From Candidatus Peribacteria bacterium (lineage in GTDB: Bacteria > Patescibacteriota > Gracilibacteria > Peribacterales > Peribacteraceae): a stretch of 35,120 nt of DNA. A program made the position numbers and the translations under genes. Under the pieces are notes generated by a model. It worked only from the letters and a program-made list of their open reading frames with translations, ran no database searches and was not told the DNA's origin. Where the stretch lies: assembly GCA_009691405.1 (NCBI GenBank), contig SICN01000010.1, positions 1 to 35,120 on the forward strand, written 5' to 3'. Each line of letters opens with the position of its first letter. Position 1 is the first letter of the stretch. Below, piece after piece: positions 2,741 to 21,102 of this stretch.

Positions 2741-4175
2741 GAACCTCTGTCTTCGAAAGCAGTGAGGCAACTTCATACGCACCTGGCGAGTATTCACGAC
2801 CCGTAAGAGCGGCCCTAAGCGGCCAGAGAATTTGGCCCTTCTTCATGCCTGACGTCGCGATGAGCGATTCCAATGCAGTCGTCACCTCACGTAGCGACCA
2901 GGCGGCATCGGAAACCCTTGAGAGCGCTTCCTGAATCAGCGAGAGAATCTTCGGCACGTCTTCTTTGCTGATTTTCTGCTTCGAGTTCGCAATCAGGTCA
3001 AGAGAAACCTTCGGTGTTTCGTAGAAATACGAGAGCATATCCGGGGCTTCTGGAAAAAAGGTGATACGTTCCTGGATAAGTGTGGCACGCTCGGAAAATT
3101 TCGAATCGGTTGAGGCTGCAGGAAATTTTTCCGCAACGAGAGGCTTGATGCGTGCGGCGAATTCTTGCACCGGGATTTTCCGCATCCACTGACCCTGAAG
3201 CCAATCGAGCTTCTCGAGATCCAAGACCGCTCCGGATTTGTGCACGCGATCAAGGGAGAATGCATCGATGAGTTCTTGAAGAGAGAACAGTTCCTGCGTC
3301 GTCCCGGGGTTCCATCCGAGCAGTGCCAGGAAGTTGATGAGTGCCTCCGGAAGATATCCTTTCCTGATGTAGTCCTCGACAGCGACGTCATTCTGACGCT
3401 TGCTGAGTTTGGTACGATCTTTGTTGAGGAGGAGAGGAACATGGGCATACCTCGGCGGCTCCCAGCCGAACGCGCGAAAGAGCAGCAGGTGCTTCGGGAG
3501 TGAGCTCAGCCATTCTTCCCCCCTGTTCACCATATCCGTTTTCATCAGATGATCATCAACGACATGTGCGAGGTGGTACGTTGGAAACCCGTCGGATTTC
3601 ATCAGCACCTGATCGTCGATCGTATGCCCCTTGAAGACGAGCGGTCCGTAGATTTCATCCGTCACGCATATAGTCTCCTCACGCGGAACTTTCATGCGGA
3701 TGACGTGCTTCTCCCCGGATGCAAGGCGCTTCTGCACTTCTTCTTCCGAAAGTTCCAGACATGTTCGATCGTACATCGGAGCTTGCTTCCTCGCTTCCTG
3801 CGCTTTCCTCATCTGATCCAAGCGTTCACTGGTGCAAAAGCAGTGGTATGCATGCCGGCTCGCAAGAAGTTGATCCGTATATTTTTTATACACATCAAGC
3901 CGCTTGGATTGGTGATAGGGTCCGTACTCTCCTCGCTCCGTCACTTGCCCCGCGGCATCGAGCATCACTCCCTCGTCGGGGGAAAGACCCGCCCACACAA
4001 GTGTTCGAACGATATTCTTCGCAGCCCCTGCAACCTCTCGGGTCTTATCCGTATCTTCGATCCGGAGCGTAAATGTTCCCTTCGTCTTCCTCGCAAGAAG
4101 CCAGGCAAAGAGAGCTGTCCGAAGCCCCCCGAGATGCAGGAAACCGGTCGGTGAAGGCGGGAAGCGCGTGCGCAT
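2712..4175 (-). CDS. gltX: Glutamyl-tRNA synthetase
   Basis: Class I aminoacyl-tRNA synthetase that charges tRNA-Glu (and possibly tRNA-Gln, if non-discriminating) with glutamate. The 487-residue protein is of usual length. The N-terminus RFPPSPTGFLHLGG (residues 4-17) holds the HIGH-class signature in the form HLGG, LRIEDTD follows, then VNRGEEWLSSLPKH, and a KMSKS-equivalent KLSKR near residue 256. The remainder is the helical anticodon-binding domain. The start ATG at 4175 has TAAGCT (4183-4188) seven bases upstream. The next gene downstream has its own promoter overlapping the gltX end. No glutaminyl-tRNA synthetase or gatCAB is in the window, so tRNA specificity cannot be settled here. 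Confidence 0.95.
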   Translation of the reverse strand: MRTRFPPSPTGFLHLGGLRTALFAWLLARKTKGTFTLRIEDTDKTREVAGAAKNIVRTLVWAGLSPDEGVMLDAAGQVTERGEYGPYHQSKRLDVYKKYTDQLLASRHAYHCFCTSERLDQMRKAQEARKQAPMYDRTCLELSEEEVQKRLASGEKHVIRMKVPREETICVTDEIYGPLVFKGHTIDDQVLMKSDGFPTYHLAHVVDDHLMKTDMVNRGEEWLSSLPKHLLLFRAFGWEPPRYAHVPLLLNKDRTKLSKRQNDVAVEDYIRKGYLPEALINFLALLGWNPGTTQELFSLQELIDAFSLDRVHKSGAVLDLEKLDWLQGQWMRKIPVQEFAARIKPLVAEKFPAASTDSKFSERATLIQERITFFPEAPDMLSYFYETPKVSLDLIANSKQKISKEDVPKILSLIQEALSRVSDAAWSLREVTTALESLIATSGMKKGQILWPLRAALTGREYSPGAYEVASLLSKTEVLDRIKKWIV

Positions 4176-13752: not shown

Positions 13753-14910
13753 CTATTCATCATTCATCCGCAACGGCATGATCAAGTGAAGAAACACTTC
13801 GCTCCCCTGCGACCGAAACACCGCTGGATGCATCTTATCGAGAAGCTCGATATGCACTTTTTCACTGTCGAGCCTTGTGAGAAAATCGATGAGGTACGTG
13901 GAGCTAACGGCGATTTTATTCTCCTGCCCCGTGAGTTCCGCTTGGATCGTCGACTCGTCTTTGCCGAGTTGCGTCTGCTTCGTTGTGAGGTGGATCCCCG
14001 TTTTGGTGAAACCGAATGTGATGTTGTTGTTGAGCTCTTTTGCGAAGTAGTGCATTCGCTTCACGGCGGTCAGTAGTTCTCGCGTGGAAGCGAGGACTGT
14101 TGTTGCCTTCTCTTTCGGGAGTACCTGCTGGTAATCGGGGAACTTCCCGTCGATAAGGCGGCTTGTAAGACGCGTCGGGCCGATCACCACTTCGATCTGC
14201 TGACTGCCGAGGGCGATATCGATTTTTTCGATCTGCTGTGCTTTTTTCTTCTTCTCATCAGCCTCTTCCTCGCCACTCGCACGATGGAGTGCAATCACCG
14301 CTTTCAATTCCTCCATAAACCTCGCCGGGATAATGCATGAAATCTCGCCCGAAAGTCCCTCTACAGGGATCCTGTACTCCGATAGACGGTAACTGTCGGT
14401 TCCGACGAGTATTAGATTCCCTTTCTCCAATCTCACAAACACGCCGGAGATCACAGGTCGTGACGATGTCTTGGCACAAGCGAATGTGACAAGATTGAGT
14501 GCGTGAAGAAGTGGAGGAACAGGAAGTGAGAATATTGTTTCTTTTTGAATAGCGGTGATTGTCGGAAATCCGCTTGCAGCCTCTCCTGCAATGACTGCTT
14601 TAGCGTGTTTCGATTGGATTTTCAGTTGTGTTCCCTCACTTGTTTCAAGTACCACTTCGACATCTTGTTGATATTGCATGAAGTGGAGAGCAGCTTTTGC
14701 CGGAATGGTAATGGAACCCTCATTCTCTATCATCACTTCAAAGCTTGTCACAATGGATACTTCTAAATTTGTTGCGCTTAATGTGCAGCGCTTTCCTTCA
14801 CAATGAATAAGGATGTTCTGAAGAATCGGCAGAACCTGATCCGATCCGATCGCCCGATTCACTAATTGAAGTCCAGTAAGAAGATCCTGTGTTTTACATG
14901 AAAATTTCAT
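13753..14910 (-). CDS. dnaN: DNA polymerase III beta subunit (sliding clamp)
   Basis: Ring-shaped processivity clamp that tethers polymerase and repair proteins to DNA. The 385-residue protein starts MKFSCKTQDLL and shows typical clamp motifs: TDSYRLSEYRI, LIDGKFPDYQQVLP and the C-terminal HLIMPLRM. A charged segment EEEADEKKKKAQQIEK (about residues 224-240) looks like a lineage-specific insertion in the middle domain. ATG 14910 is chosen although the frame stays open to 15060, because the family start is there and a promoter (TTGATA, 17 bases, TTCAAT) ends six bases upstream. The upstream region carries DnaA-box-like repeats and is a candidate replication origin; dnaA itself is not in the window. 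Confidence 0.95.
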   Translation of the reverse strand: MKFSCKTQDLLTGLQLVNRAIGSDQVLPILQNILIHCEGKRCTLSATNLEVSIVTSFEVMIENEGSITIPAKAALHFMQYQQDVEVVLETSEGTQLKIQSKHAKAVIAGEAASGFPTITAIQKETIFSLPVPPLLHALNLVTFACAKTSSRPVISGVFVRLEKGNLILVGTDSYRLSEYRIPVEGLSGEISCIIPARFMEELKAVIALHRASGEEEADEKKKKAQQIEKIDIALGSQQIEVVIGPTRLTSRLIDGKFPDYQQVLPKEKATTVLASTRELLTAVKRMHYFAKELNNNITFGFTKTGIHLTTKQTQLGKDESTIQAELTGQENKIAVSSTYLIDFLTRLDSEKVHIELLDKMHPAVFRSQGSEVFLHLIMPLRMNDE

Positions 14911-15373
14911 AATTGAATTGAAGAGGAACTTGTTTCTTTTATCAAGGACAATTTTACTTTTCATTTCTTTTTGTTTTCTTATTGGATTGTAAAAGTAAAT
15001 AAATTTATAGAGTTCGTCATCATCATGACCCCTTGTAATTCTTTGAAAAAAGACATGCATTCCTGTGGAGAACTCCTTGTGAGTAGAAAATATACTCTTT
15101 CACTTTTTGCTGTCTATTAGCCAAAATCAACAATTTTCTGCATAAAAAATGTTTGCGGATTGTCTGTGGAAAACTTGTGGAAAACGATAATGCGTGCGTT
15201 CCTGGAAGCCATGGGAAAATTTATCACTTCTCAAAGCCAATGATGACATATTCTGTGGAAGAGGGAGGGCAACTTGTACCTCATTCTTTCTTCCATTTTC
15301 CACACCATGCTTGGGGATTGCTCCGAAAGCTTTGATGTGGACGAATGATTTGTGGGCAGGATGCAAGCCGATC
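14911..15373. other. Candidate replication origin (oriC) upstream of dnaN
   Basis: A 463-base gap without a convincing gene. 14911-15060 is AT-rich and could serve as the unwinding element. Further up, TGTGGAAAA occurs at 15165-15173 and 15176-15184, exactly 11 bases apart, and its reverse complement TTTTCCACA at 15296-15304. Each differs at one position from the DnaA box TGTGGATAA. Near copies are TGTGGAGAA (15064-15072) and TGTGGAAGA (15254-15262). A cluster of DnaA-box-like sites beside dnaN is the classic setting for oriC. I could not measure strand skew. Confidence 0.5.
14917..14945 (-). promoter_or_regulatory. dnaN promoter, leaderless geometry
   Basis: On minus, TTGATA (14945-14940), a 17-base spacer and TTCAAT (14922-14917), then six bases to ATG 14910. 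The -10 matches consensus at four of six positions. Confidence 0.45.
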
Positions 15374-16657
15374 TTATATTTTTTTTCGAAGTGCACTGCG
15401 ATTGACGGTCGATGTAACTCTATTCGGACGGTGGACTCCGTCTTTCAAAAAAGAACGGTCGGGAACGTCCGAGTTGACGATGGAGCCGGAACTGATGAAG
15501 GAATGTTCTCCGATTTTCACTCCGGGGAGCAGGCATGTATGGATCCCTGTTCGAGAGTGCGCTCCGATGATGACGCCAAATTTCGTTCGATGCGTGGGCA
15601 CTTTCTCGCCACGCACCGTCGATACGATCGGTTCTTCATCCAGACGCAGATTTCCGGTCACCGTTCCTGCGGCGAGCGACACATCGGAGGCAAGAACCGA
15701 GTCCCCAACGTAACTGCTGTGCGTCCATACATCGTTCCCGAGGATCGAGCGTGCAATCTCGGTGTTGTAGCCGATCACACATCGCTCACCAACGGAACTT
15801 CCTCGAACGAGTGCGTTATTGGCGACAATGCTGCCCTGTCCGATAGAGCATGGACCGACGATCGTTGCGTGTGCCATCACCCTTACACCCTCCCCAAGCA
15901 GAACGGCACCTTCGATGACGGCAGTGGTATGGATCACGCAACTTTTCGGAATCACCGGCTTTGTGTTGGGTGGCAGGATGTCTCCAAGCAGATCAAGGAG
16001 GTGCCACGGATACTTCACCGGGTGCCAACTTCCTGCGTATGGCACCGCTTCATACACATGTTCTTTGAAGAGCGTATCCAGCGCCTGCTCGTATCCATCA
16101 TCGTTCACGCTTTTGGCTTTTTGCAGTGCTTGCAGGAGGACGGAAGCATCGGCGTGAACATGGGCGACCAGATTCACAAGGTCGCTTGGCTCTTTGCCTT
16201 CCCTCGGTTTTTCGACGATCGAGAGAATATGCTTTCCCTTCGTTTTCAAATAGCCTCCCGGGAAGTGTGTCTTCACTTTTCTTGCAAGGATCAGCCCTCC
16301 GTCTTTTCGCTTCATTCCTTCTTTTCGGAGCAAACGAAAGGCAGCTTCGTCGATGACGTCGTTCGCACTGACGATCAGAACGGACTCTTTCTTGCAGCGA
16401 GGAAGTGCTGTGAGGAGTGCCCCCCGCATCCCCGCATCGGCATCGGTTTGAGTGAGAATTTTTTCAGTCGGGAAACGCTTGCGGGCCTCTTTCACATTGT
16501 GCGGTCCGCCGACCAGAAGAATGTCTTCGTATCCTGCGCTTTTCAACTTCTTCAGCTGTCTCTCGAGGAGATTTGTTCCCCACATCGGGAAGAAATTTTT
16601 TTCGCTCAGAGGCCAGAAACGCGTCGATCTGCCTGCGAAGATGAGGATGGCGATCAT
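15374..16657 (-). CDS. Sugar-phosphate nucleotidyltransferase with left-handed beta-helix
   Basis: A 427-residue two-domain protein. Residues 1-220 are a nucleotidyltransferase Rossmann-like domain, with AGRSTRFWPLSEK as a diverged form of the G-x-G-T-R-x-x-P-L signature; the RxWPLS pattern recalls mannose-1-phosphate guanylyltransferases. Residues 245-410 show hexapeptide periodicity (for example AVIEGAVLLGEGVRV, SIGQGSIVANNAL) typical of a left-handed beta-helix as in GlmU-like enzymes. It probably makes an NDP-sugar for surface polysaccharide, but sugar and base cannot be assigned, and acetyltransferase activity is possible. It starts 36 bases after the ComEC-type gene, with TACCAT 13 bases before the ATG. 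It is the first gene beyond the candidate origin. Confidence 0.75.
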   Translation of the reverse strand: MIAILIFAGRSTRFWPLSEKNFFPMWGTNLLERQLKKLKSAGYEDILLVGGPHNVKEARKRFPTEKILTQTDADAGMRGALLTALPRCKKESVLIVSANDVIDEAAFRLLRKEGMKRKDGGLILARKVKTHFPGGYLKTKGKHILSIVEKPREGKEPSDLVNLVAHVHADASVLLQALQKAKSVNDDGYEQALDTLFKEHVYEAVPYAGSWHPVKYPWHLLDLLGDILPPNTKPVIPKSCVIHTTAVIEGAVLLGEGVRVMAHATIVGPCSIGQGSIVANNALVRGSSVGERCVIGYNTEIARSILGNDVWTHSSYVGDSVLASDVSLAAGTVTGNLRLDEEPIVSTVRGEKVPTHRTKFGVIIGAHSRTGIHTCLLPGVKIGEHSFISSGSIVNSDVPDRSFLKDGVHRPNRVTSTVNRSALRKKI

Positions 16658-16692: not shown

Positions 16693-17541
16693 TCACCATA
16701 TAATCTCGATCGTCCCTTCAGTATCTGTTCGCCGTACCTCTGCACCGACCTTTCGAAGCGTCTCCAGCACTTCCGGTCTCGGATGTCCGTAGGAGTTTTT
16801 ACCAACCGAGAGAACGGCAATCTTTGGGCGAACAGCTCGAAGGAAAGCCGTCGTGCTCGAGGTGAGACTTCCGTGGTGCCCGACCTTCAGAATGTCCGCT
16901 CTTAAATCTATGCGACTCCGTACGAGTGTTTCTTCCACCTGCTTCTCCGCGTCTCCCGTGAAGAGTGCGCGTTTGTCTTGGTATTCCAGCATGAAAACAA
17001 CTGAGGTGTTATTTGTTTCCTTCGAGAATCCTGCAGGCATTCTCTTGGGAGGCCAGAGGATGCGCATGGTCATGCCGTCTCCCAGGTCGAAGGTCTTTCC
17101 GGCATAGACGCGTATCACGGGGATCGCTCGCTGCGCTGCCAGTGCGAATATTTCGTTGTATCGAGGGAGCGAGTGATCGACCTCCGCAACGAGAATCCCG
17201 CCGACGTCGTAGCGTTTCAAAATTTCCGGAAAGCTGAGGAGGTGATCGAGATTCGGGTGTGAGAGTTGTAGGAGGTCGATGCGACGCCGGAAGAACGGCA
17301 AAAATTCACCGAGACTTTCGAGTGTCGACCAATCGGGGCCTCCGTCGACGAGTATGGTCTTCCCGCCGGGAGTCGTGATGAGCGCACTGTCGCCTTGGCC
17401 GACATCGAGGAACCGGAGGTGCAGTCGCCCGTCTTCCTGCAGGTTCCATTCACGCAGCGCAAGCACTGCAATCACAAGGGTGATGCAGAGGAAGAGTATC
17501 CGTCTTGAACAAGAGGAAGACACAGACGAAGAGCGTAGCAC
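16693..17541 (-). CDS. ComEC/Rec2-type metallo-beta-lactamase-fold protein
   Basis: A 282-residue protein with an N-terminal hydrophobic anchor (about 14-30) and an extracytoplasmic hydrolase domain like the C-terminal domain of the DNA-uptake channel ComEC. Motifs in order: FLDVGQGDSALI, LVDGG, LSHPNLDH (metal site, H-x-x-x-D-H), NNTSVV, LFTGDAEKQVEE, LKVGHHGSLTSS and a terminal TDTEGTIEI. The competence transmembrane domain is absent, so it stands alone; a nuclease role is suggested by family only. The GTG start at 17541 lies ten bases after the stop of the fibronectin-type gene, with GGA just before it, so it is probably translated from the same message. Confidence 0.82.
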   Translation of the reverse strand: MLRSSSVSSSCSRRILFLCITLVIAVLALREWNLQEDGRLHLRFLDVGQGDSALITTPGGKTILVDGGPDWSTLESLGEFLPFFRRRIDLLQLSHPNLDHLLSFPEILKRYDVGGILVAEVDHSLPRYNEIFALAAQRAIPVIRVYAGKTFDLGDGMTMRILWPPKRMPAGFSKETNNTSVVFMLEYQDKRALFTGDAEKQVEETLVRSRIDLRADILKVGHHGSLTSSTTAFLRAVRPKIAVLSVGKNSYGHPRPEVLETLRKVGAEVRRTDTEGTIEIIW

Positions 17542-17551
17542 TCCGACTGTT

Positions 17552-18544
17552 TTATTTCCTGCGACGCATGCGTTTTCCCGCCAGTATTCCCGAGACCACG
17601 CTGATGCCGAAGAGTCCGATGCCGGAGTCAGGGAGGTCTGTTTTCGGAGTGTCCACTACCACGACGGATGGGGGTTCGGTGATCACCGGGTTTCTGACAT
17701 ACGGGATGTCCTCAATGGATGCGTACGAAACCGAGGAGGCGGAAGAGACACTGGCGGGGACTGAGAGCGAGGAGGTGAATCCTCCGAAGGAAATCTTATT
17801 CGCATTCGTCGGGAGATTCGTACCGTCATCCGCCGGAACGGGCTCCAGAATCGAGAGGTAGTACACCGTTGTCGAATCCTGAGTGAAGGTCGAGAGGAGA
17901 ATCGACATGCCGCTGCCCGTGATGACGCCGGTACCGGTTTCGAGAACCACGCCGCTGCCGTCACTCACGAGGAAGAACTGCGGGTGGAAGATGTTTCCTC
18001 GAAGGAGCGGCTTTGTGAACGTGATGAGCACTCCCGTCTCCGAAACCGCCTTCACTTCAGACAGTGTCATCGGGATCGATGTGACGACAGGAATGGTCTC
18101 GGTGGGTACGGAGGGAAATGACGATGCCGATGCTGAGGGAGAGGCGGAAGCGCTCTCGGCTGGCGGCGTCTCGGCAGACAGAAGATCGACCGATGCTTCC
18201 GTTTCAAATCCTTCGCTTTCCATACCGTCTCCGGAGACTGCGAGAATCGCGATGTAGAGTTTTCCGGACTTGAAAGGCAGTGATTGGAATGTGTACGAAG
18301 GAGTGTTTCCTTGCGTTCGATCGGTGTCATCGTAGTCTCCTCCGTTATTGAGGATCGACTGATGGCTGTAGTAGACACGGTAGAAAGCGGCATTACTTAC
18401 CTGAGACCATGAAACGTTCACGGTGTTTCCACTCACAGTGGCACTCGCGTTCGAGACGTTCCCCGGGGCTCCTGCTGCGGACACAACGGACGAGACCAGG
18501 GTAACTCCTGCGAGGATCACTGTGAATTTTTGTTTGATTGACAT
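17552..18544 (-). CDS. Surface protein with fibronectin III domain and LPDSG anchor
   Basis: A 330-residue exported protein. Residues 1-23 are a signal peptide (cleavage near VSAAGA). Residues about 26-123 form a fibronectin type III-like domain (VSWSQVSNAAFYRVYYS). A Ser/Pro/Ala-rich linker (about 124-150) and a second beta-rich domain (about 155-255) follow. The C-terminus has LPDSG (codons 17635-17621), a hydrophobic stretch and KRMRRRK, the three-part layout of a sortase sorting signal. The same LPDSG signature recurs in the protein at 27076. Its promoter is near ideal and leaderless (TTGACT, 17 bases, TATAAT, six bases, ATG). A role in adhesion or host contact is plausible but not shown. 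Confidence 0.78.
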   Translation of the reverse strand: MSIKQKFTVILAGVTLVSSVVSAAGAPGNVSNASATVSGNTVNVSWSQVSNAAFYRVYYSHQSILNNGGDYDDTDRTQGNTPSYTFQSLPFKSGKLYIAILAVSGDGMESEGFETEASVDLLSAETPPAESASASPSASASSFPSVPTETIPVVTSIPMTLSEVKAVSETGVLITFTKPLLRGNIFHPQFFLVSDGSGVVLETGTGVITGSGMSILLSTFTQDSTTVYYLSILEPVPADDGTNLPTNANKISFGGFTSSLSVPASVSSASSVSYASIEDIPYVRNPVITEPPSVVVVDTPKTDLPDSGIGLFGISVVSGILAGKRMRRRK

Positions 18545-18949: not shown

Positions 18950-20971
18950 TCACTTCGATTGGAGATCAATGGCATACAGCTTCTTTTCGTCGAGAACGTA
19001 GAGGCGCGAGTCATCACCGTCGACGTAGAGATCCTTCAGCACCCCGACTTGATCCGAGTCGAAGATGTACTGCTTCAAGTAGAGAGAGTCCCCAAGGTCA
19101 CTGTCCCCCGTGGTAACGATGATTCTCTTGTTCTCGGGATCCAGGAAGTAGAAGTTCCCCGTTGTCGTTGCCTTGAAGATTTTCGTCACACCATCGAGAG
19201 CCCCCGGCGGAAGATTTCGTATATTGAAGGGCTGCTTCTCTCCGCGGAGCAACTTGACGGTGTCTCTGGCTTTCGGTTTCTCAGGCGTGGAAACATCTCG
19301 GAGAACGTACACCGGGCCTACAATCGTCATGTCGAGGGCGCCCGAGAGATCCCCGTTCACGTTGTACTCCGCCGGAGGACCGTACTTGCTCGCAAGCCGC
19401 TCATACTTGTAGATCTGCTTTCGTTCGGGAGAGAGAACGTAGAGGTATCTGAGGTACGTCTTGATGTCGGATCCCGTGACCCACCCCGCGGTGTCTTCCG
19501 TTTTCATCGTGGTCGGCTGGCCGTTGATGATCTCGATGACGCTGTTGCCTGTCGTCATGAAGACCTTGCTCTGGAAGCGCGGGAACCATACACCATTCAA
19601 AATCAATTCTTCCGATCCGAGTTTCTCACCCTCTTCCACGGTATTCAGCGACACTCGGTAGAGATTCTGGCGGTCGTAGACCGCGAACTCTCCGCTCGGA
19701 AGACCGATGAAACCTTGCGCCACGATATCGGGTTTCTTCGCGCTCAGATTCGCCATCACGCGCGGAGGAACAAGTCTGATGATGCGGTTCATTTCCTCGC
19801 GCTTGGATTTGATGCGCTCCAAGAGTTCGAGCGCCTCACTTCGGTAGAGTCCGCTTTCGTTTCCCATCACCTGCTTCGCTCGCTCGTCGGCGCGTTGCAA
19901 AATGGCGTTCGCGCTCTCGGTGTCGCCTGCAAGTTGCCTGTTCTCCGCCGTCGAAAGATCGGCGGTGATTTGCTTCACAAGATCAGCAAGCTCTCCACGC
20001 GTTTGGCTCTTCTGGCTCACGAGGCTTAGTTGCACCACCATCCAGATCACGAGGAAGAGTGCACCGCTTCCCGCGAGCAGCAGCAGATGCGCTCTCCGTT
20101 TTCTTTCGGGATTGTAGAGATCCCCAAGGAAGGTGCTGACCGATTCTTTGAATCGTTCCCAGGCGGACGCACTTCGCTTCCCCGTCAATTTCCCCCTCAT
20201 TTTCCTCGCCAGAGATCTCCACTCTATACCGGCGAATGTGCTCGTGACTCTGGAGAGGAGGGCGCTGCCCGATAGTTTCTGACGACTTCTGAGGAGGCGT
20301 GGACTCGCTCCCATCGGTCGTCTCGCGGGTTCTTTCTCACCGGTTCCTTCGGCGTCACCGGAGATCACAATGTGCGCGATGCAAGCGACTTCCTTCTCCG
20401 CAGCCAGCGCTGAAATGATATTTTGGATGATGGACTCGCCATCGTGTTGCACCATCTTCGAAAGTTGGGCGGGAGTGACCGTACGGAGGAGTCGCTGCGA
20501 CGCAATCACGAAGTGATCGCGATTGCGTACAGGGCCGCTCAAGATTTGCGTGAACGCGACCGGAGCTTTTCCGCGGGCAGAGAACTCGGTGATCTGAAGA
20601 GTCGATCCATCCCGGATGATGTAGGTTTCCGCACGCCCGACATTGCTGAGATGCAACATTCCTTCGGTTTCGATCAACCCGACGATTGCATGGACGTCGG
20701 AAACGGCTTCGGAGAGCATGAAGCCCTTCAGAAGCCCGTTCAACTCTTTCAGAGCGCTCTCTAGTCGCTCGTATCCGCTGCCGACTCCGTCGAGGACGGC
20801 GTGCGTGAGCACCGTCACGAATTCCTCGCGCAGATTTTCGCCCCCTTCCGCTTTTCCATCGCACTGCATCAAGAAGAATGCGCGTTCACCTTTTTCCTCA
20901 CCGAGAACCACGGGCACCAGCACGGTTCCATGAGGTGCTTTCGTCTGCCCCGTCGTGACCGCGATCTTCAT
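18950..20971 (-). CDS. PP2C-like membrane protein with C-terminal propeller-like domain
   Basis: A 673-residue protein in three parts. Residues 1-210 resemble a PPM/PP2C phosphatase: CDGKAEGGEN near 38, VGRAETYIIRDG near 117, and the region usually holding the second metal-binding DG reads IASQRLLRTV, so activity is doubtful. A basic linker leads to one transmembrane helix near residues 295-320. A probable coiled coil (about 320-400) and a repeat-rich beta region follow (YLYVLSPERKQIYKYE, NFYFLDPENKRIIVTT, RLYVLDEKKLYAID), probably a propeller outside the membrane. It may sense something outside and signal inward. ATG 20971 has TAGCCT ten bases upstream and TTGCGA 17 bases further. Confidence 0.65.
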   Translation of the reverse strand: MKIAVTTGQTKAPHGTVLVPVVLGEEKGERAFFLMQCDGKAEGGENLREEFVTVLTHAVLDGVGSGYERLESALKELNGLLKGFMLSEAVSDVHAIVGLIETEGMLHLSNVGRAETYIIRDGSTLQITEFSARGKAPVAFTQILSGPVRNRDHFVIASQRLLRTVTPAQLSKMVQHDGESIIQNIISALAAEKEVACIAHIVISGDAEGTGEKEPARRPMGASPRLLRSRQKLSGSALLSRVTSTFAGIEWRSLARKMRGKLTGKRSASAWERFKESVSTFLGDLYNPERKRRAHLLLLAGSGALFLVIWMVVQLSLVSQKSQTRGELADLVKQITADLSTAENRQLAGDTESANAILQRADERAKQVMGNESGLYRSEALELLERIKSKREEMNRIIRLVPPRVMANLSAKKPDIVAQGFIGLPSGEFAVYDRQNLYRVSLNTVEEGEKLGSEELILNGVWFPRFQSKVFMTTGNSVIEIINGQPTTMKTEDTAGWVTGSDIKTYLRYLYVLSPERKQIYKYERLASKYGPPAEYNVNGDLSGALDMTIVGPVYVLRDVSTPEKPKARDTVKLLRGEKQPFNIRNLPPGALDGVTKIFKATTTGNFYFLDPENKRIIVTTGDSDLGDSLYLKQYIFDSDQVGVLKDLYVDGDDSRLYVLDEKKLYAIDLQSK

Positions 20972-20981
20972 ACAGTGCAAG

Positions 20982-21010
20982 AGGCTACACTTCTTATGAT
21001 TTCCTCGCAA
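20982..21010 (-). promoter_or_regulatory. Promoter of the PP2C-like gene
   Basis: On minus, TTGCGA (21010-21005), 17 bases, TAGCCT (20987-20982), then ten bases to ATG 20971. The predicted leader is three or four bases. Confidence 0.45.
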
Positions 21011-21035
21011 GATTCCAGAGGATCTTGGGAGAATC

Positions 21036-21102
21036 AAGAATCAAGAAATACCACAATAGATTGAAGTGATGAGGAAATCTTGATTCTTATTTCTTGATTC
21101 TT
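21036..21102 (+). repeat. Long inverted repeat in the RNase J leader region
   Basis: AAGAATCAAGAAATA (21036-21050) is perfectly complementary to TATTTCTTGATTCTT (21088-21102) across 37 bases. Each side also holds a second copy of the core: AATCAAG is doubled on the left and CTTGATTCTT on the right (21079-21088). It lies between the divergent PP2C-like and rnj genes. No T-run follows. Confidence 0.6.

Follow-up and report, generated by a model that had tools for sequence, protein, structure and literature searches.

The window analysed here is a stretch of 35,120 nucleotides from a chromosome of the Peribacteria, a CPR lineage for which we know of no cultured member. As seen in Table 1, a gap of 463 bp separates a glmU-like gene from dnaN, with mfd downstream of dnaN. 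The gene order glmU, gap, dnaN, mfd is kept in nearly all of the relative loci. The mechanical list of open reading frames placed the start of dnaN at 15060(-); this start was rejected in favour of the one indicated by the family match. The GC content of the gap falls to a minimum of 18% at 14950-14999. The description in the first-pass annotation, a gene-free gap beside dnaN with an AT-rich stretch, is therefore accurate. The host assembly, whose nearest named relatives are Candidatus Peribacteria (Peregrinibacteria, CPR), comprises 1,012,454 bp in 45 contigs, and dnaA is found on a different contig from dnaN (C5:4254-5690). Beyond the glmU-like gene lies a stand-alone protein that matches ComEC in its metallo-beta-lactamase part (16693-17541), which adjoins the putative origin in most relatives. 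It is followed by proteins of 330 aa (17552-18544) and 695 aa (18950-21037) that have no Pfam matches, the former being partly conserved among relatives.

Table 1. Features of the dnaN-adjacent gap and of the dnaA locus (window positions unless a contig is named).
Feature	Position	Strand	Remarks
Putative oriC	14911..15373	.	From glmU-like gene end to dnaN start; gene-free, conserved boxes, skew switch in relatives
dnaN (polymerase III beta clamp)	13753..14910	-	TIGR00663, E 6e-73; transcription directed away from the putative origin
glmU-like nucleotidyltransferase/acetyltransferase	15374..16657	-	Best NCBIfam match TIGR03992, under its cut-off
DnaA box TTTTCCACA	15296..15304	+	Inverted relative to the other boxes; many relatives carry one in this orientation at about the same position
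Degenerate DnaA box TCTTCCACA	15254..15262	-	Shared in position with L039 and L040
DnaA box TTTTCCACA, first of 11-bp tandem pair	15176..15184	-	Exact match
DnaA box TTTTCCACA, second of tandem pair	15165..15173	-	Exact match
DUE-proximal DnaA box TTCTCCACA	15064..15072	-	TTATCCACA in the nearest relative, L039
35-bp spacer, box to repeat	15029..15063	-	Fixed spacing in relatives
DnaA-trio-like repeat TCA TGA TGA TGA CGA	15014..15028	-	Predicted DnaA-bound strand 3'-AGT ACT ACT ACT GCT-5'; conserved 5'-YKA-3'
Predicted AT-rich DNA unwinding element	14950..15013	.	Low GC; AT-rich tract after the repeat also in relatives
DnaA box upstream of rseP	Host genome C5 (L002) 3069-3077		Conserved in relatives L158-L177

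All exact copies of TTTTCCACA in the 35-kb window, 3 in number, lie inside the gap. The first-pass annotation had reported these three copies, two of them spaced 11 bp apart, at their correct places. The further box-like motifs that it listed, TTCTCCACA and TCTTCCACA, are likewise present. Clustering is also evident at the scale of the genome, since TTTTCCACA occurs only 10 times in 1,012,454 bp and 3 of these copies fall within the 463-bp gap. With the other 7 copies as background, 0.003 copies are expected in 463 bp, and the chance of such a cluster is about 5e-9.

The conservation of the boxes was examined at 48 related dnaN loci by comparing the 700 bp upstream of dnaN with 550 kb of surrounding sequence. 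TTATCCACA was found in 65 copies upstream of dnaN versus 6 in the surroundings (166-fold enrichment), and TTTTCCACA in 54 versus 15 (58-fold). The earlier proposal of a lineage-specific DnaA box TTTTCCACA is thus upheld with regard to the box itself, which is enriched, but the word is not private, and the gaps of the family use both TTATCCACA and TTTTCCACA. The closest relatives share the positions of the boxes (inverted at about -394, 11-bp tandem pair at about -274/-263, proximal at about -162), and the tandem pair is kept in L043, L044, L060, L086, L088 and G026. Additionally, a TTTTGGCT/TTGGCTT-like stretch after two boxes (15100-15270) recurs in close relatives and is possibly another origin element. 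Of 20 regions upstream of dnaN taken from other orders of the class (L178-L197), only about 5 have exact boxes within 500 bp. Because the pattern is patchy in these orders, the box layout is claimed for the Peribacteria family and for nothing beyond it. One region of another order (L193) carries a trio-like CTATGACTATGACGG upstream of dnaN.

As the host genome is divided into 45 contigs, skew was taken from relatives only. Two single-contig relatives, G031 and G029, were used, with about one third of the chromosome sampled and one stretch of G029 reading N left out. The best switch from negative to positive skew in G031 occurred at 12 kb, with the boxes at 10.5-10.8 kb, and in G029 at 1,034 kb, with dnaN at 1,075 kb. 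For G031, the best score was 293, compared to 288 with the origin forced at dnaN, 45 with the origin forced at dnaA, and a block-shuffle maximum of 220. The corresponding scores for G029 were 451, 438 and 249, with a block-shuffle maximum of 285. In a relative of the same genus (G002:C6), the cumulative skew minimum of the sample lies just past dnaN. For G030, the minimum of the sample is some 100 kb distant from dnaN, and dnaA is not at a minimum either. A skew switch at dnaA was seen in none of the sampled relatives (G031, G029, G002 and G030). The local skew of the window, taken alone, is noise.

One relative, G026, separates the boxes from dnaN. In this genome, contig C21 carries dnaN and mfd, and dnaN is not preceded by boxes there, while four TTTTCCACA boxes are found beside glmU on another contig (G026:C72; L198, 6590-6910) in the same arrangement, including the 11-bp tandem pair. 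After these boxes come a short repeat, TTACGACGA, and then an AT-rich tract; the proximal box is degenerate (ATCTCCACA), and the repeat stands in the same 35-bp frame. A rearrangement has separated the origin from dnaN in this genome. Boxes upstream of dnaN were also looked for at loci L041 and L042, and none were found.

The box cluster could be explained without an origin in two ways. It could represent a DnaA-controlled promoter of dnaN, with the origin elsewhere, for example near dnaA. In favour of this, dnaN does have the boxes upstream of it, the gap contains a promoter-like match, and DnaA boxes also precede the rseP-dnaA operon. However, the cluster in G026 remains with glmU and not with dnaN, and therefore it is not the dnaN promoter; moreover, the skew of relatives switches near dnaN and fits dnaA poorly, and a promoter would have no use for a repeat kept at constant spacing with an AT-rich tract next to it. 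This explanation is very improbable. The cluster could also be a product of chance or an artefact of AT-rich gaps, given that the motif was picked after the fact in one genome and that such words are favoured in AT-rich gaps. The conservation in relatives, with enrichments of 58- to 166-fold at 48 related loci, refutes this reading, and the share of genomic copies held by so short a gap also stands against it, leaving it a negligible probability. Because of the box enrichment, the skew in relatives and the cluster staying put in G026 while dnaN moved, the gap at 14911-15373 is judged from sequence to be, with very high probability, a DnaA-dependent origin, the oriC of the Peribacteria chromosome analysed here, in agreement with the candidate origin that the first-pass annotation placed beside dnaN. 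The features expected of an oriC are found together: a box cluster above background, an AT-rich element, a skew minimum (in relatives) and a host DnaA with domain IV.

Parts of this picture are already known. The origin of Ca. Peribacter riflensis, of the same class as the host of the window, was placed by GC skew in 2016, with DnaA-box-like repeats nearby (PMC4736985). The available portion of that report gives no position of the origin relative to dnaN, which goes unmentioned there, and contains no description of the trinucleotide repeat, of its spacing from the box or of the boxes at the operon. A dnaN-adjacent origin with remote dnaA is known from cyanobacteria such as Synechococcus elongatus PCC 7942, where oriC is intergenic, adjoins dnaN and carries TTTTCCACA boxes, with dnaA elsewhere (PMC3480399, PMC4674748). 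The Peribacteria gap resembles the cyanobacterial oriC in all of these respects and differs in belonging to an unrelated phylum, in having another flanking gene, and in that TTATCCACA is as frequent as TTTTCCACA. It fits the cyanobacterial type in layout only and not by kinship. The remoteness of dnaA, which in G029, G030 and G031 is separated from dnaN by about 430-460 kb, had been called an unusual layout; dnaA is indeed not adjacent, but this is the rule in the family and has the cyanobacterial precedent. Origins at sequence level for a whole CPR lineage would be useful for estimates of growth rate from metagenomes.

Downstream of the boxes lies a module composed of a DnaA box, a fixed spacer of 34-35 bp, a trinucleotide repeat (5'-YKA-3' on the dnaN-sense strand) and an AT-rich tract. 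The trinucleotide repeat at 15014-15028 was absent from the first-pass annotation. A repeat followed by an AT-rich tract is found downstream of the boxes in nearly every informative relative, and the mean repeat score is 22.1, as against 17.7 for shuffles and 18.0 within dnaN. The repeat is preceded at 33-37 bp by a forward box in 39 of 47 loci; permuting the repeat positions gives a mean of 8.9 such loci and a maximum of 16. The module lies anywhere between 50 and 170 bp from dnaN, while the spacing of box and repeat is constant. When repeats were anchored on the box and only the third base was scored, 38 loci passed, versus 11.2 in shuffles. On the dnaN-sense strand, the middle base of these repeats is G in 85, T in 66, A in 1 and C in 0, which corresponds to adenine or cytosine on the bound strand in 151 of 152; the first base is T in 84, C in 66 and G in 2, corresponding to a purine in 150 of 152. 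Across the box-anchored loci, the strand that DnaA would bind thus reads 3'-purine-(C or A)-T-5'. The middle base is adenine throughout in 7 of the 38 loci, mixed in 18 and all cytosine in 12. In the conserved frame of the window, all 4 matching repeats have cytosine in the middle, while a shifted frame gives three 3'-TAC-5'. The polarity of boxes, trios and AT tract is presumably the same as in B. subtilis.

A close known arrangement is the basal unwinding system (BUS) of B. subtilis with its DnaA-trios, which has in common with the gap a box, a one-strand trinucleotide repeat, an AT-rich tract and the base-capture residues of DnaA (PMC6669920, PMC8287927, PMC10721633). The consensus of the B. 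subtilis trios is 3'-GAT-5', with the middle adenine contacting Asn187; cytosine, which also bears an amino group, can replace this adenine, and G and T work poorly (PMC10721633). The restriction to adenine or cytosine in the Peribacteria repeats is what this amino-group chemistry leads one to expect. To be counted in the BUS survey, trios needed adenine in the middle and a box no more than 16 bp away; its authors suspected the existence of deviant trios lacking the middle adenine (PMC8287927). The middle base is adenine in the BUS, whereas it is adenine or cytosine in Peribacteria and cytosine throughout in the window. Spacers of the BUS peak at 10-13 bp with a limit of 16 bp; those of Peribacteria measure 34-35 bp, about two helical turns away from the usual 13 bp. 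Consensus or one-mismatch boxes lie at 33-37 bp, outside the BUS limit, and weak two-mismatch or inverted boxes are found 11-13 bp from the repeat in the window and in a minority of relatives.

The DnaA of the host, a protein of 478 aa with the DHTT motif of domain IV and matches to solved structures, keeps all of the residues equivalent to N187, I190, I193, R202 and E228 of B. subtilis. Among the DnaA proteins of 19 family members, N187, R202 and E228 are invariant and I190 and I193 are I or V. No DnaA residues were found that separate adenine-type from cytosine-type genomes, the trio calls being uncertain in several genomes.

It is reasonably probable, with appreciable room for doubt, that the DnaA-trio code of Peribacteria is naturally relaxed to 3'-purine-(adenine or cytosine)-thymine-5', combined with an otherwise conserved DnaA and with a box set farther off by two helical turns than in known modules, and that the trios of some species, including that of the window, are all-cytosine. 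The gap could instead be an oriC in which the repeat is another element, for example a site for a nucleoid protein, and in which DnaA opens the AT tract otherwise, as in E. coli. At 34-35 bp, the spacing is longer than the 16 bp allowed in the published module (PMC8287927), many repeat members lack a middle adenine, and the spacer could host another protein. Yet 7 of the 38 box-anchored loci are all-adenine on the bound strand in the same place and frame, cytosine is the sole substitute and is also the only base that can functionally stand in for adenine in the DnaA-trios of B. subtilis (PMC10721633), and the base-capture residues of DnaA are conserved. The alternative element is considered unlikely, although it carries real weight. 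For the gap as oriC, we infer that DnaA binds, that it captures bases at cytosine, that helicases load and that the origin fires; the computed elements are the box cluster and its conservation, the repeat, the fixed spacing, the AT-rich tract, the skew of relatives and the DnaA residues. DnaA from the remote rseP-dnaA operon would bind the boxes at 15064-15304, and a filament from the box at 15064 would span the fixed 35-bp spacer to the repeat at 15014-15028. There it would capture the flipped bases of one strand, purine-cytosine and not the usual guanine-adenine. The AT-rich tract at 14950-15013 would then melt, helicases would load there and two forks would leave.

Judged by the papers searched, the exact place and layout of the origin are new, and so are the relaxed code of the repeat and its long spacer of fixed length. 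The literature searched holds no report of natural middle-cytosine trios, the cytosine swap being known as a laboratory mutation. The relaxed code, if true, would be evidence from nature that the amino group of the middle base is what DnaA reads, and the natural series of all-A, mixed and all-C repeats provides a test of how DnaA recognises single-stranded origin DNA.

DnaA boxes are also found at the dnaA locus, where dnaA lies downstream of rseP (M50 protease) in an apparent operon; we take this gene to be rseP from its HExxH-type sequence, without a library search. A box before rseP, about 1.54-1.71 kb upstream of the AAA+ domain of dnaA, is present in the host and in each of the 19 relatives for which the available sequence extends far enough. 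This box is exact in all but one, and a facing box follows 17 bp on in nine (TGTGGAAAACTTTTnnGTTTTCCACA). The arrangement suggests that DnaA represses its own rseP-dnaA operon.
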